Made by a program: the position numbers and the translations under genes. A DNA stretch of 23,556 bases from contig RFFQ01000184.1 of assembly GCA_003697105.1 (NCBI GenBank), positions 1-23,556 of the forward strand, given 5' to 3'. This document shows, piece by piece, positions 4,521 to 23,245 of this stretch. Position 1 is the first letter of the stretch. Each line of letters opens with the position of its first letter. The notes under the pieces are model-generated. The model worked only from the letters and a program-made list of their open reading frames with translations. It ran no database searches and was not told where the DNA came from. The DNA comes from Gemmatimonadota bacterium (GTDB lineage Bacteria; 4572-55; J002).

Positions 4521-4868
4521 TTATTTATCCATCCAATCTTGACGCTGCCGGTGGAATAACTCCAGAATCTCTGGGGTAACCGGCTGTTGTAGCGCATCCA
4601 TTTTTTGGATAAGCTGAAGGTCGATCCCGCCTCGATGCAATCCACAGGCTTTTAAATCGACAAAATCCATGTAGGGATATACCACCAAGCTAAATTCCGT
4701 GAAATAGCCGTCAAATGCCCGTACCCGTTGCCCCTCATGGACAAACCACATCTGGGTATCCTGCGATTTGCGCATTTCGTTGAGGATTTCAGAAGGAATG
4801 TGGCGGATGTTCCAACACTGACCCGTATCTGCTTGAATTTGATGATTTACATGTTCGATGATGTTCAT
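4521..4868 (-). CDS. Small conserved-looking protein of unknown function, coupled to the D-glutamate cyclase-like gene
   Basis: A 115-residue soluble protein that I do not recognise. It has no signal peptide or membrane segment. It contains aromatic-rich central strands (residues about 40-70, including FDGYFTEFSLVVYPYMDF) and a helical C-terminus, suggesting a small alpha/beta fold. Its ATG overlaps the TGA of the upstream gene as ATGA (4865-4868), so translation is probably coupled and the two products may act together. No terminator is visible in the 11 nt separating it from the convergent TPR gene. No function is assigned. Confidence 0.7.
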   Translation of the reverse strand: MNIIEHVNHQIQADTGQCWNIRHIPSEILNEMRKSQDTQMWFVHEGQRVRAFDGYFTEFSLVVYPYMDFVDLKACGLHRGGIDLQLIQKMDALQQPVTPEILELFHRQRQDWMDK

Positions 4869-5719
4869 TGGTTTATCTCCATGATATGCCGAATCGATTC
4901 TAACATTTGTAGATGGACTGCCAGTGGAAATCCATCGATGAGCATTTTCGGAATACCGGTTATCCCATCAACCGCTCCTGCCCTGATCAATGCTTGCAAT
5001 ACATCGTGTTCGACATGAGGTTCAGGCATCACGGATTCGCCGCTCAGTACGGATAATCCGGCTAAAAGCGCCCATGTACCCCAATTGGAGACACCACAAG
5101 TGATCAAAAAGTCGGTTGTGGTGGTGCTGGCGATGGTTTCACCATGGGGGATATAGGCTTGAACCAGACCGAACCGTTTACCCATACCGATTTCATTACC
5201 GCCATCACCAATGCCCGTTGTTCGGATGCCCCTTGAACGCGCCGTGATAATTAGGCAGTCCATCGGCGCGGTGTAAGCGGTGATAGATTCCCCGCGCATG
5301 CTGTAATAATTGCCATCCCTTGCCACACCCGCCCGCTCAATTGCCACCAGATGGTCAAATCCTTTATCTAATTGATGTGTTACAAAGACATCTGTATTTT
5401 CAAAGGGATATTCAACCAATGGAATGTCAGGTGCAACGGTATCCAGTCCGGCACGCAAAAGGGGTAGGTTGGGTGCATCCGTAAAAATTACCGGATATTT
5501 ACCGAGTTTGGCGAGTCCCCTTGCCAGCGCAATGGCACCGGGAGGTCCATCGGTTTCACCGGTACCGGCACGAAGGACATAGAACCCGGTCAAAATTCCG
5601 ACCCGGTTAGCGGTAAATAGGGCTTTGGTTGCTTGTTGTAGGTCACCGGGGACGCGTAATGGGGCGATGCTCCGTTTTCCAATATCGTAGGCAATGTGGT
5701 TTTCTAGCGATTGAAACAT
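4865..5719 (-). CDS. D-glutamate cyclase-like protein (DUF4392 family)
   Basis: The protein has 284 residues when started at the ATG at 5719. A longer reading from a TTG at 5764 would translate intergenic repeat sequence and is rejected. The chain shows the DUF4392/D-glutamate cyclase C-terminal domain pattern: GILTGFYV at 41-48, a G-E-T-D-G-P-P-G-A segment at 54-62, an EYPFENTDVFV-like strand near 103-113, and the hallmark GDGGNEIGMG at 171-180. In mitochondria the homologous domain of DGLUCY converts D-glutamate to 5-oxo-D-proline; stand-alone bacterial versions are mostly uncharacterised. It appears cytoplasmic. The next gene overlaps its stop codon. Family membership is confident; the substrate is inferred from the family. 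Confidence 0.85.
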   Translation of the reverse strand: MFQSLENHIAYDIGKRSIAPLRVPGDLQQATKALFTANRVGILTGFYVLRAGTGETDGPPGAIALARGLAKLGKYPVIFTDAPNLPLLRAGLDTVAPDIPLVEYPFENTDVFVTHQLDKGFDHLVAIERAGVARDGNYYSMRGESITAYTAPMDCLIITARSRGIRTTGIGDGGNEIGMGKRFGLVQAYIPHGETIASTTTTDFLITCGVSNWGTWALLAGLSVLSGESVMPEPHVEHDVLQALIRAGAVDGITGIPKMLIDGFPLAVHLQMLESIRHIMEINQ

Positions 5720-5731
5720 GAATGAACCGTT

Positions 5732-5850
5732 ATCCGTGAGCCGTGACCCAAACTCCCGAATCAAGATTTAGGGATTAGGATTTCGGGGTTCATGTAATTC
5801 CCGAACTCATAAACTCCTCAACTCCCGAACTCCCCAACTCCCGAACTCAC
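5732..5850. repeat. Intergenic direct repeat, copy A (downstream of flavodoxin)
   Basis: This copy has a 62-nt core (5739-5800) that by hand alignment matches copy B (6404-6465) at 57 of 62 positions without gaps. The core is followed by a tail (5801-5850) of short tandem units of the AACTCCCGAACTCC type. It starts just upstream of the D-glutamate cyclase-like ATG and runs into the flavodoxin stop codon (5847-5849), which is formed by the repeat itself. It resembles the short-unit intergenic repeat families of cyanobacteria and some uncultured phyla. Confidence 0.85.
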
Positions 5851-8431: not shown

Positions 8432-9640
8432 CTATGCCGCCGTATGGGGGGGTTGTTTTAACTCCTCCAGTAGGGTATGTACCGCTTGTTCCCCGTTCGT
8501 ATCATTGGTTTGCCGGTAGATTTTCAAAGCGTCCTCGGCAAGTTTTCGGGCTAATTCGGGGCGTTGTTCCGCTTGATACACCCGTGCCAAACCCAAATTG
8601 GCACCTGCCATAAGATGGCTCAGGGTGGTATCCTCAGCGGCAAGTGAGATCGTTTTGATGTACCATTTACTAGCATCGCCCCAATCCTTTTGGGTCAATG
8701 CCAACTGTCCCAAATTATAGCTGTATTCGGCTTGTTTTGCTGTTTTTCTGACCCGTTCCGCCAGATAAAATGCGTGCTTAAAATATTGCTGGGCAATCTC
8801 CGGCTTGTGTTGGTGTTGAGCGTATTCTCCCAACCGATTATAGACCATTCCGAAAATATCGTAATAAATATCCCGGTCAAAACTGGGGTCTTTGCGGATA
8901 AACTGGTGTACTGCCAGCTGAACGTCTTCCAATAATTTCGATTTTTCTGGGGTATCGTCCGGTTCACCAATCCACGTGTCTTGGCTGATAATATTTTCGT
9001 CGGAAAGTTGCTGAATAATAAAATCTAAGTCCCGGTATTGTACCAGTTCCCGGATAATCAGGGAATAGCGCCCGGAATTCCCCCAGAGGGTGAAATCCAT
9101 ACTCAGTTTTTTCTTTTCTTCTTGGGTGAGATCATGAATTCCTTGCAGAATAAACTCGGCTTCATTCTGGAAGCGCTCTTTATCAATGATGTTGTTGTGG
9201 AGTTTTTTGATTTCGCGGTCGATACGCTGGGTCAGTTTGCGGTTGATGGAGGTATTGAGGTAATCGTAAATGAAATCCCGAAGTGTTTTGAGTTGGGGCG
9301 TATTTTCCCCTTGGGAGACGGTCGGCACTGCCACGGTGGAGATCACGCCAATAAACAGCCCAGCCCCCAATAAGCTTTGCAAACTTTTGTTTAGGAAGAG
9401 GTCATTCCCAAAACTGATGCCCAGCGCCGCCAGAGCATACGTAACCCCCGCCGCACCACAGGCAGAAACAAACACGTAAAAATAGGCGGAAAAAAATCCG
9501 GCAAGATACCGTTGGGTGGTTGGATACTTGCGGGCTAAATCCACCCATGCAAAGATAATCCCCAAAAAAAAGCCCCACACTGCCGGATTCACGGTGGCGG
9601 GGTTAACCAGATTTTGTAAGGTTGAAAGTACCGTTGCCAT
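8432..9640 (-). CDS. Membrane-anchored TPR protein, partner of the TIR protein
   Basis: A 402-residue protein with three hydrophobic stretches at the N-terminus (about 20-35, 46-74 and 87-106; the middle one may cross twice). A charged helical region (115-260) leads to C-terminal TPR repeats: residues about 266-300 (Y-N-R-L-G-E-Y...A-x-x-Y-F-K-H-A), 306-335 (Y-N-L-G-Q-L-A...A-S-K-W-Y-I-K) and 346-380 (A-N-L-G-L-A-R-V-Y...A-R-K-L). The repeats probably face the cytoplasm. Its ATG lies 3 nt after the TIR stop codon with no clear ribosome binding site of its own, so translation is probably coupled to the TIR gene. No catalytic domain is recognised. By context it could be the membrane sensor or pore-forming effector of a TIR-linked system; this is inference. 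It could also be an ordinary TPR scaffold. Confidence 0.75.
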   Translation of the reverse strand: MATVLSTLQNLVNPATVNPAVWGFFLGIIFAWVDLARKYPTTQRYLAGFFSAYFYVFVSACGAAGVTYALAALGISFGNDLFLNKSLQSLLGAGLFIGVISTVAVPTVSQGENTPQLKTLRDFIYDYLNTSINRKLTQRIDREIKKLHNNIIDKERFQNEAEFILQGIHDLTQEEKKKLSMDFTLWGNSGRYSLIIRELVQYRDLDFIIQQLSDENIISQDTWIGEPDDTPEKSKLLEDVQLAVHQFIRKDPSFDRDIYYDIFGMVYNRLGEYAQHQHKPEIAQQYFKHAFYLAERVRKTAKQAEYSYNLGQLALTQKDWGDASKWYIKTISLAAEDTTLSHLMAGANLGLARVYQAEQRPELARKLAEDALKIYRQTNDTNGEQAVHTLLEELKQPPHTAA

Positions 9641-9643
9641 GAG

Positions 9644-10231
9644 TTATTTTTGTTTAACCTGTTGGATGACGTTGGCGATGGTCGAAAAGGGATCAGTGGT
9701 GATATTCGGAATCTCAACCACATATTTGCTCTCCAAAAAGAGCGGGAAATGCGGCTTTTTCGGGGTGAGCACCAGATGAATGAAGGGGATATTTTGCTGG
9801 CTCAGTTCGATCAATACCCGGGCGAGGTCGTTATCGCGCCAAGGCTCCACATGCCCGGTCACGATCAATCCGGTTTCAAAAGTGCAAGTCATCCCCGAAA
9901 TAAGCGCGTTCCAATCATCAAAAATGGAAAGCTGGTAATCCTGCATCAAATGGGTTTTGGTTTGTTCGGCAAATTCAGCGTCTTCCCGGTGATAGCCAAG
10001 GAAGGCATCAAAATGATGCTCGGGGGCACTCTGTTTGGTTATTGGGGGAGTGGCATTTAGTTGCTGGATTATTTTCAGTTCCCGCTGAAGTTCCTTGAGT
10101 TCGGATTCCGTTGATTCGATTTGCTTTGCCAGCTTAAATTTAAGGGCGGAATCCGTTTCGTGAATATAGGCTTGTCGTAGCCGGGTTAATTTCTCGTTTA
10201 GAAGCTCGTGAAGATCGCCTCGTTTATTCAT
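9644..10231 (-). CDS. TIR-domain protein with helical effector-associated-like N-terminus
   Basis: The ATG at 10231 is preferred (GAGGTGG 3-4 nt upstream) over TTG at 10252, giving 195 residues. Residues 7-52 form a charged helical hairpin (HELLNEKLTRLRQAY, then KFKLAKQIESTESELKELQREL) of a kind common at the N-termini of bacterial TIR and CHAT proteins in conflict systems. A TIR domain follows (about 73-176): FDAFLGYHRED at 74-84 is the first strand and BB-side motif, LSIFDDWNALISG at 101-113 is the second strand region, and PWRDNDL at 130-136 plus IPFIHLVLT at 148-156 are later elements. Bacterial TIR domains often cleave NAD+ or make cyclic ADP-ribose signals. The segment between ISGM and EPW is about 10 residues shorter than in typical TIRs, so catalysis is uncertain. 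It is the first gene of a two-gene unit with its own promoter. Confidence 0.8.
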   Translation of the reverse strand: MNKRGDLHELLNEKLTRLRQAYIHETDSALKFKLAKQIESTESELKELQRELKIIQQLNATPPITKQSAPEHHFDAFLGYHREDAEFAEQTKTHLMQDYQLSIFDDWNALISGMTCTFETGLIVTGHVEPWRDNDLARVLIELSQQNIPFIHLVLTPKKPHFPLFLESKYVVEIPNITTDPFSTIANVIQQVKQK

Positions 10232-10279
10232 GTTCCACCTCAGTTTCCTCAAATACGTTCCGCGCTATTTCATTTTCTC

Positions 10280-20586: not shown

Positions 20587-21186
20587 CTAATGAACAATGA
20601 ATTTTAAGACCACAAACCCTAAGATCAACAAGATAGTAAACAAAATAGCGAGGATGTCAAAATATTTTTCGATGAAGGTACGGATGCTTGCCCCAAAGAG
20701 GAAGATCAAGCCTCCGACGAAAAAAAACCGGAATCCACGTCCGATAATCGAGGCACCCACAAAGGTCAAAAAATTAAAATGAAAGACTCCAGAAGCGATG
20801 GTGAACACCTTGTAAGGAATGGGGGTGATGGCGGCAACTAAGATGCCCCAAAAGCCATAGGTATCATACCAAAATTGGATTTTCGCCATTACCGCCTGCC
20901 CGTGATAAAACTCAACGATCTGAACACCGATGGTATCGTAAGCAAATAATCCGATTCCATAGCCTAGCATACCCCCCACAACCGAACCAGTCGTGCAGAT
21001 CAAGGCGTATAAGAAGGACTTGCGGGGGATGGAAACGGCAAGGGCAATCAGGAGCACATCGGGGGGAATCGGGAAGAATGAAGATTCCGCAAATGCTAAC
21101 AGGAAGAGCGCCGGCACGGCATACGGTGTTTCTGCCCAGTGCAATACCCAGTCATACAACCGGCGGATTATGTTCGGTTTTGCCAC
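20587..21186 (-). CDS. YqaA/DedA-like SNARE-associated membrane protein
   Basis: No ATG is available near the N-terminus. GTG at 21186 is chosen because GGGAGG lies 7 nt upstream; a GTG at 21201 is in frame but would include that site. The 199-residue protein has about five membrane segments. DedA/VTT-domain features are visible: ALFLLAFAESSFFPIPPDVLL near 26-46 with Glu34 and the FPIPPD turn, GSVVGGMLGYGIG, and ITPIPYKVFTIASGVFHFNFLTFVGASIIGRGFRF near 128-162. DedA proteins are implicated in undecaprenyl-phosphate or phospholipid flipping and proton-motive force; the YqaA branch is less studied. The start overlaps the surE end by 19 nt. A SurE-YqaA neighbourhood is also seen in other bacteria. 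Confidence 0.9.
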   Translation of the reverse strand: MAKPNIIRRLYDWVLHWAETPYAVPALFLLAFAESSFFPIPPDVLLIALAVSIPRKSFLYALICTTGSVVGGMLGYGIGLFAYDTIGVQIVEFYHGQAVMAKIQFWYDTYGFWGILVAAITPIPYKVFTIASGVFHFNFLTFVGASIIGRGFRFFFVGGLIFLFGASIRTFIEKYFDILAILFTILLILGFVVLKFIVH

Positions 21187-21929
21187 AAATTGACCTCCCA
21201 CTCCCGAATATGAGAAATGGTTTCATAGTGCGTTAAGTCCAGATGAATTGGGGTAATCGAGATGTAATCATTCTCGATGGCATAGGTGTCGGTATCCGTG
21301 CCCAAATCCGTGTTGACGGGTGTACCCGCAAGCCAGTAATAATTGCGTCCCCGCGGGTCTTCTTTTTTAACTACTGGATTCTGGTAGGTGCGTTTCCCCA
21401 ATCGTGTGATGCGCACTCCCCGAATCTCACCGGCGTCAACTGCCGGAATATTGACATTCAACAGGACATCCTGTGGCAGACCGTGTTCCAGCACCTGTTT
21501 AACTAAGGTGGCGGCAAAATCGGCGGCAACTTGATAGTTTTCCGATTCATAACTTGCCAGCGAAAACGCAATGGCGGGAACGCCCAACAAAGTACTCTCC
21601 ATGGCGGCGGCAACTGTGCCGGAATAGGTAACGTCATCTGCTAGATTGGGACCTCGATTAATACCGGAGACCAGAATATCGGGTTGCCGGTCTAATAAGG
21701 AACGGAGTGCCAACATCACGGAATCCGTGGGTGTGCCACTTACCGCGATGGTTTCTGAATCAAGATGGGTTGCCCGAATCGGTTGGTGAAAGGTGAGCGA
21801 GTGGCTTGTGGCGCTTTGTTCACGGTCGGGAGCGACGATAATGGTCTCTCCGAGAGTTCGCATGGCGTCGCGTAAGGCTTGGATTCCCGGCGCCTGAACA
21901 CCATCATCATTGCTAATTAAAATGTACAT
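21168..21929 (-). CDS. surE: 5'/3'-nucleotidase SurE
   Basis: A 253-residue cytoplasmic nucleoside-monophosphate phosphatase, also able to hydrolyse short polyphosphate in other species. The metal site is complete: Asp8 and Asp9 in ISNDDG, Ser39 in DREQSATSHSLT, and Asn91 in SGINRGPNLADDVTYSGTVAAAME. VSGTPTDSVMLAL at 63-75 is also diagnostic. SurE is usually associated with stress survival. It lies 15 nt downstream of the short exported-protein gene and overlaps the YqaA-like gene. Length is normal for the family. Confidence 0.97.
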   Translation of the reverse strand: MYILISNDDGVQAPGIQALRDAMRTLGETIIVAPDREQSATSHSLTFHQPIRATHLDSETIAVSGTPTDSVMLALRSLLDRQPDILVSGINRGPNLADDVTYSGTVAAAMESTLLGVPAIAFSLASYESENYQVAADFAATLVKQVLEHGLPQDVLLNVNIPAVDAGEIRGVRITRLGKRTYQNPVVKKEDPRGRNYYWLAGTPVNTDLGTDTDTYAIENDYISITPIHLDLTHYETISHIREWEVNLWQNRT

Positions 21930-21944
21930 ATTTTCCTATATTTT

Positions 21945-22418
21945 TTAAGAGGTTAGCGTCGATACGATGCGTTGAAGTTCTGTTTCGAGTGTCTGAATCT
22001 GGTTGAGATCGATGTAAATCACATTTTCGCTGGGGGTCTGTGCTTCTTGGTGCGAGATCACCACAAACGAAAGATGCGGGTATGCGCGGGCATAATCTTC
22101 TAGCGGCGCTGGATCATCCGGTAGGACAACCACAACCAACTGTACCGGATTTGCCAACGCGATGTCCAGTGCCGCCAATGGTCGCGCATCCCGGTCGGGT
22201 ATAAACTCCAACCAATCCATCTGACCGGTCTGGGACGTGGAGATAATTGTCTGGTTTAGAATTCGCGTAAGGGTTGCCGGTTCATTCGGGGCGTGAATGA
22301 CGGCTCCTAAAATGGAAGGGGTTCTTCCCTCCTCGGCGGGGGTTTCCCAACCCAGCCATGAGGTGCATTGCTGGGGCAGACTCACCAGTAACAACATTCC
22401 CACTAACATGGGTTTCAT
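21945..22418 (-). CDS. Short exported protein, weakly BMP/periplasmic-binding-like
   Basis: The ATG at 22418 (ATGA overlap with the upstream M55 gene) gives 157 residues with a signal peptide (MKPMLVGMLLLVSLPQQC). A Cys at about residue 18 hints at a lipoprotein, but the box is not canonical (PQQC). The mature part has two Rossmann-like strands: LVVVVLPDDPAPLEDYARAYPHLSFVVIS recalls the segment of BMP-family (PnrA/Med-like) binding proteins that reads D-A-V-E-x-x-A-x-x-Y-P-x-x-x-F-V-I. At this length it would be only about half a binding-protein lobe, so it may be a truncated or divergent relative. A longer reading to 22556 lies inside the M55 gene and is not favoured. The function is unknown. 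Confidence 0.65.
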   Translation of the reverse strand: MKPMLVGMLLLVSLPQQCTSWLGWETPAEEGRTPSILGAVIHAPNEPATLTRILNQTIISTSQTGQMDWLEFIPDRDARPLAALDIALANPVQLVVVVLPDDPAPLEDYARAYPHLSFVVISHQEAQTPSENVIYIDLNQIQTLETELQRIVSTLTS

Positions 22419-23245
22419 GTCAAATTTTTTTCGATTGCGTCTAAACAAGATAGAAGGTAGATGGTGCGGTACGTTTCGATCATATTGACACCAACCAGCG
22501 AAATCTGATAACCATCCACCCGTTGGACCCCGGGGATCCATTCTGCAATATCGCACAACGTTGTCCGGGGGAAAGTTGCCTTGAGATGGATGGGAGGTTC
22601 GATAATATAGGGCGGGATTTCATTTGCTTTGACAATGGCGGTGCGGGCGGCGCTTTGAATTTCCTGACAAACATGGTGCGGGTGTAAACAGCGTGCCGCC
22701 ATAGACGAATACGCAATTTTCGTTGCCACCGTTTGGGTACCGGGTAGCATTTCATGCACACTATCAATGAGCGACGCATCCCCAGTGACCAAGCCAACCG
22801 GAATCGAATAATGTCCGGCAACGGCGGCTAATACGCCAACTTCACCATAAGCGCGATCATTAATTTCGATATGCATCACTTCGCTCAAATGCGCCAGGGA
22901 AAACCCTTTGCCAGAACTGAGATCGGAATGAAATCCCATTAGAAAGACCATATCACAGGGTTCAGCAAAGGTGGCAAATTCGGCTCCAATTTGGGAGGTC
23001 AGGGGACCGCTGATCAACTCCACATCTTCATAAAGATCGACATGCGTGATGTTGCGCATGCTGCCGTAAAAATCCCGAACAATGACTTTCGTGGCACCCG
23101 CTTCAATCGCACCGGTGACCGCGGCATTGATTTCGTCGATTTGTAACTGGCGGATACGGTTATATTCGTGAGGGTTGATCTGCTTCCAGTCTGCACAAAC
23201 TACCCCGCCAACACCTTCTAAATTGGCAATGATAAATATTCTCAC
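22415..23245 (-). CDS. M55 family (DppA D-aminopeptidase-like) protein with altered metal site
   Basis: It starts at GTG 23245 (AGGA about 8 nt upstream) and has 276 residues, the family's usual size. Overall it matches B. subtilis DppA: N-terminal MRIFIIANLEGVGGVV, VIVRDFYGSMRN, VFLMGFHSDLSSGKGFSLAHLSE, and GEVGVLAAVAGHYSIPVGLVTGDASL. DppA binds two zincs through Asp8, Glu10, His60, His104 and Glu133. Here Glu10, His106 and Glu135 remain, but position 8 is Asn and position 60 is Tyr. The SxDxEG signature reads IANLEG. Peptidase activity on D-amino acid peptides is therefore doubtful. It is the first gene of the seven-gene operon and overlaps the next gene by ATGA. No signal peptide is seen, so it is cytoplasmic. 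Confidence 0.88.
   Translation of the reverse strand: MRIFIIANLEGVGGVVCADWKQINPHEYNRIRQLQIDEINAAVTGAIEAGATKVIVRDFYGSMRNITHVDLYEDVELISGPLTSQIGAEFATFAEPCDMVFLMGFHSDLSSGKGFSLAHLSEVMHIEINDRAYGEVGVLAAVAGHYSIPVGLVTGDASLIDSVHEMLPGTQTVATKIAYSSMAARCLHPHHVCQEIQSAARTAIVKANEIPPYIIEPPIHLKATFPRTTLCDIAEWIPGVQRVDGYQISLVGVNMIETYRTIYLLSCLDAIEKNLT

Follow-up and report, generated by a model that had tools for sequence, protein, structure and literature searches.

What becomes of a metallopeptidase when part of its metal site is replaced? The point of reference for this locus is B. subtilis DppA (MEROPS M55.001), a D-aminopeptidase that forms a D5 homodecamer and is represented by PDB entry 1HI9. The 2001 structure paper of Remaut et al. 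is said to name Asp8, Glu10, His60, His104 and Glu133 as its zinc ligands, with Asp8 bridging. Two zincs are assigned to DppA in a review table. The window, by which we mean the whole 23,556-nucleotide stretch analysed here, encodes a DppA-like protein in which two of these five positions are occupied by other residues:

22415-23245, minus strand: M55 (DppA-like) protein of 276 amino acids, with Asn8, Glu10, Tyr60, His106 and Glu135 at the zinc-ligand positions (PF04951, 1hi9 fold, translation)
23222-23224, minus strand: codon 8, AAT (Asn); Asp in every other examined M55 that covers the column (alignment and codon reading)
23066-23068, minus strand: codon 60, TAC (Tyr); His in every other examined M55 (alignment and codon reading)

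By sequence and fold, the product is a member of family M55. It scores 217.1 bits against the Pfam profile PF04951 (Peptidase_M55; cut-off 25), covering profile positions 1-262 of 264; among solved structures, sequence comparison found a single relative, DppA of B. subtilis (1hi9; phmmer E 2.6e-25). The NCBIfam equivalog model for DppA, NF058634, gives 127 bits, so far under its cut-off of 430 that this M55 protein is no DppA orthologue by that model. The open reading frame begins with GTG, preceded by a Shine-Dalgarno-like AGGA, and ends with TGA; it is the sole M55 gene detected in the source genome, a draft in 199 contigs that is 96.85% complete.

How secure is the reading of the ligand positions? 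Over roughly the first 90 residues the phmmer alignment to DppA has no gaps, which means that residues 8 and 60 carry the same numbers as in DppA; further on, His106 and Glu135 correspond to His104 and Glu133 of DppA. Residues 6-11 read I-A-N-L-E-G and residues 58-61 read D-F-Y-G; set against the five-ligand signature of the family (Asp8, Glu10, His60, His104 and Glu133, with the SxDxEG motif), the protein has Asn8 and Tyr60, with Glu10 retained. The initial annotation had described exactly this, namely Asn8 for Asp and Tyr60 for His at sites whose numbering coincides with DppA, SxDxEG turned into IANLEG, and Glu10, His106 and Glu135 kept; codons, translation and alignment agree with it on every count. 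A compensating ligand is not evident in the sequence.

Could the two replacements be ordinary variation? M55 proteins were collected from ~390 sampled genomes, the closest relative's phylum, a scan of 84,980 species, and plasmids, yielding a comparison set of ~100 (an alignment of 95 others plus 8 further proteins). The ligand columns read DEHHE in 92 of the 95; one very divergent M55 (L017) has DDHHE, and two that are incomplete at the N-terminus give --HHE. DEHHE is also found in all eight further proteins (two genome relatives and six plasmid copies). Asp8 is therefore present in 93/93 M55s that have the column and His60 in 95/95, both being found again in the additional eight, and neither Asn8 nor Tyr60 occurs in any other M55 of the ~100 examined. 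Among the 13 columns conserved at 90% or more, the protein retains 11 and deviates at only two, both zinc ligands. With all five metal ligands practically invariant in every other M55 examined, the two substitutions are, by alignment, far beyond ordinary variation in the family, and an M55 protein with two ligands lost is a single case so far.

Downstream of the second replaced ligand, the catalytic loop is unusual as well:

22883-22921, minus strand: catalytic-loop region, codons 109-121, with an extra residue before His119, Leu120 for Thr/Ser, and pLDDT below 50 (alignments and AlphaFold2)

Asp108 occupies a position that is mostly Arg, Met, Lys, Gly or Pro in the 95 other proteins, Asp not being among the commonest residues; Ser110 stands where 81 of the 95 have Gly; and Leu120 is found in none of them, Thr or Ser taking this place in 93. 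His119, the equivalent of DppA His115, is present and followed by this Leu; relative to the Riflebacteria sisters it is shifted by one residue, and not all alignments put it in the same column. AlphaFold2 models the protein as a monomer with pLDDT 84 and pTM 0.87, residues 109-121 falling below 50 in a prediction from a shallow alignment; a canonical Riflebacteria protein (L121), modelled from the same sequence set, has no residue below 50. Because the alignment is shallow, the low loop confidence is suggestive only, pointing to an altered site. As had been claimed from the sequence at the outset, the rest of the M55 fold appears well preserved, judging by the PF04951 match and by a predicted structure that superposes on 1hi9_A with TM 0.84 (Z 32.9, rmsd 2.2 Å over 265 residues; the L121 model reaches Z 37.8 and 1.7 Å over 270 residues of 1hi9). 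The only clear fold match of the model is 1hi9; matches to flavodoxin/WrbA and glycosyltransferase structures (Z about 8-9) were discounted, such alpha/beta arrangements being widespread. In these models the M55 fold is kept and the active site is eroded or rebuilt.

When did the ligands change, and does any relative share the change? As a lone query, the protein found no matches among the genomes of 84,980 species or among 2.9 million viral contigs. A subfamily query allowing Asp or Asn at 8 and His or Tyr at 60 recovered 19 relatives from the 84,980 species, every one with Asp8 and His60, and none from the viral contigs; sampling again around other genomes brought up almost the same proteins, plus two further relatives, also canonical. 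The only other examined genome of the phylum contains no M55. A clade sharing Asn8 and Tyr60, which the initial annotation had proposed to look for, was thus not found in these searches, and the protein is a singleton among 84,980 species. Its nearest clade is the canonical M55 group of Candidatus Riflebacteria (support 98/90 with a single member, 95/86 with 13 members), from which it is separated by a long branch of its own (1.35 changes per column). Since this sister group is canonical at both positions (Ile, Val or Ala at 6, mostly Ala7, Asp8, Phe59, His60), both ligand losses fall on the protein's own long branch. A single G:C-to-A:T transition would turn an Asp codon into codon 8, and another would turn a His codon into codon 60. 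Ile6 for Ser6 does not belong to the loss, as the sisters likewise have Ile, Val or Ala there; by the same alignment, Ile6 and Phe59, odd-looking against DppA, are older and harmless. Two metagenome-assembled genomes labelled Methylomirabilis and Erysipelotrichia (L128 and L131) carry a Riflebacteria-type M55 in a Riflebacteria-type neighbourhood (UvrB-like and others) and are therefore probably mislabelled Riflebacteria.

What company does the gene keep? It heads a same-strand run that continues with three proteins listed below and then with a CitMHS_2 transporter, a phosphomutase-family protein and a DUF4476 protein:

21945-22418, minus strand: 157-amino-acid protein that starts with a hydrophobic, signal-like segment and has no family match (sequence, Pfam and PDB searches)
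21168-21929, minus strand: SurE 5'/3'-nucleotidase, next in the same-strand run (PF01975, 219 bits; NCBIfam SurE equivalogs)
20587-21201, minus strand: VTT/DedA-type membrane protein, the next gene (PF09335)

The M55 stop codon overlaps the start of the 157-amino-acid gene (ATGA), so the two are probably translationally coupled. For the small protein, Pfam gives no match and the PDB none that is meaningful; the idea that it is a truncated periplasmic-binding-type lipoprotein found no support in Pfam or PDB and one marginal match elsewhere, and was dropped. There are no dipeptide or oligopeptide ABC transporter genes among the downstream neighbours; upstream, the contig ends 311 bases from the start codon. 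In the other genome of the phylum, surE and a VTT gene whose product is 75% identical lie on either side of a gene that looks like one for a protein-isoaspartate methyltransferase. Since this relative has surE and VTT without M55, the M55 gene and the small protein would be lineage-specific, and together they appear to form a lineage-specific head of a conserved surE-VTT neighbourhood. At this locus of the relative (L144, G001 contig 20) the order is surE, the methyltransferase-like gene and VTT, an arrangement not present in the window. Elsewhere in the window, 17 kb from the M55 gene, lies a D-amino-acid-related gene of the D-glutamate cyclase type (4865-5764, minus strand; PF14336, 293 bits). 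A 202-amino-acid protein (9644-10252, minus strand) weakly matches the effector-associated domain EAD9 (E 6.5e-4) and adjoins a 402-amino-acid protein (8432-9640, minus strand); the two are possibly a bacterial conflict or NLR-like system.

If the site is so altered, why is the gene still there? The reading that we prefer, and consider probable by a narrow measure, is that the protein is a catalytically disabled M55, a pseudo-D-aminopeptidase kept for a non-catalytic role. Without the zinc-bridging Asp8 and one of the two His ligands, the di-zinc centre that activates water would not be assembled, and without that centre D-amino-acid peptides would not be cleaved. The initial annotation had likewise taken the protein to be probably no longer a di-zinc aminopeptidase; with two ligands missing that are universal in the examined M55s, and a loop that looks remodelled in alignment and model, we infer the same loss of activity. 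As to the role that is kept, our guess is that the protein assembles itself into a DppA-like barrel in the cytosol and there binds a small peptide or a D-amino-acid-like ligand, or else serves as a scaffold; either way, the M55 protein may be expressed together with SurE and the neighbouring small protein that bears the signal-like segment. A heteromer with an active paralogue is disfavoured: with no second M55 detected in so complete a genome, the protein is unlikely to serve an active paralogue as its regulatory subunit. The kept invariant residues suggest that the gene is under constraint, as the initial annotation had held. If it is indeed maintained, nature has separated the DppA barrel from its chemistry here, and the genome label "M55 metallopeptidase" does not guarantee an enzyme.

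The main rival to a pseudo-aminopeptidase is an enzyme with a single metal or an altered one. Elsewhere, Asn and Tyr are both able to coordinate metals in enzymes and, as Glu10, His106, Glu135 and His119 remain, a weakened or different metal site is conceivable. The protein would then still be a hydrolase with a rebuilt site and a changed substrate, holding one metal through Glu10, His106 and Glu135, or a different metal, with Asn8 and Tyr60 perhaps acting as weaker ligands. We think this rather unlikely: three of the five ligands, the loop-histidine equivalent and the other near-invariant columns are retained, and the new side chains are still metal-capable, yet the His119 loop, with its extra residue and without Thr/Ser, is left unplaced by AlphaFold2, and such a ligand set was seen in no other M55 examined. 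The broader proposal of a rebuilt Asn/Glu/Tyr/His/Glu site, which would make the protein the first DppA barrel to bind a ligand without catalysis, or else a hydrolase of different metal and chemistry, is a tentative one, possible and somewhat doubtful. Might the gene instead be recently disabled and decaying, with D8N and H60Y as early inactivating changes and no function left? That each codon is a single transition away from an Asp or a His codon fits such a history; so does an apparently dispensable function (the sole M55 in this genome, none in the other genome of the phylum), as does the failure of the 84,980-species searches to find a close homologue. Nevertheless, the 276-codon frame is intact, a plausible ribosome-binding site precedes it, the ATGA overlap links it to the next gene, the gene heads its run, and the several further changes in the catalytic loop imply that the loss is not brand-new. 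Together with the frame and the overlap, the 11 of 13 invariant columns kept over a long branch argue, at the level of sequence, against a long-dead gene, and we judge decay to be improbable. The last candidate is that one codon or both are wrong through base calling, assembly or a mixture of strains, and that the true protein is canonical. In a draft genome of 199 contigs, with each change a single base, such an error is imaginable; however, it is very unlikely that two point errors arose independently and hit precisely two of the five ligand codons, and the changes are accompanied by Asp108, Ser110, Leu120 and the extra residue, all rare or absent in the 95 other proteins. We give this explanation hardly any weight and return to the pseudo-D-aminopeptidase as the working view.

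How does the protein compare with known systems? It resembles DppA in fold, in length, in the positions of Glu10, His106 and Glu135, and in most of the glycine and proline invariants; unlike DppA, it has Asn8 and Tyr60 for Asp8 and His60 and a changed loop around the equivalent of His115, and its gene is not adjoined by a dipeptide ABC transporter. With the M55 proteins of Riflebacteria and Ozemobacter (L118-L128 and L131) it shares about 26-32% identity, Ala7, Phe59, the C-terminal W-I-P motif, the HP..V(C) region and a shorter stretch after the loop histidine. By contrast, all of these relatives have Asp8, His60 and a canonical HTY-type loop, and a uvrB-like gene, rather than surE, flanks most of their loci. 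Plasmid, rhizobial and enterobacterial proteins annotated as M55 family metallopeptidases are about 32-33% identical to it and differ in their DEHHE ligands; the canonical plasmid copies are encoded beside P1-family, S9 or other peptidases and peptide ABC transporter genes, whereas no P1-family or S9 peptidase gene or peptide ABC transporter gene was seen near the M55 gene in the window. The literature searched, with most subscription journals outside its scope, yielded no pseudoenzyme of family M55. In having lost catalytic residues and kept its fold, the protein is like pseudoenzymes in general (PMC10211241), a group in which, the same review points out, missing catalytic residues may have migrated.
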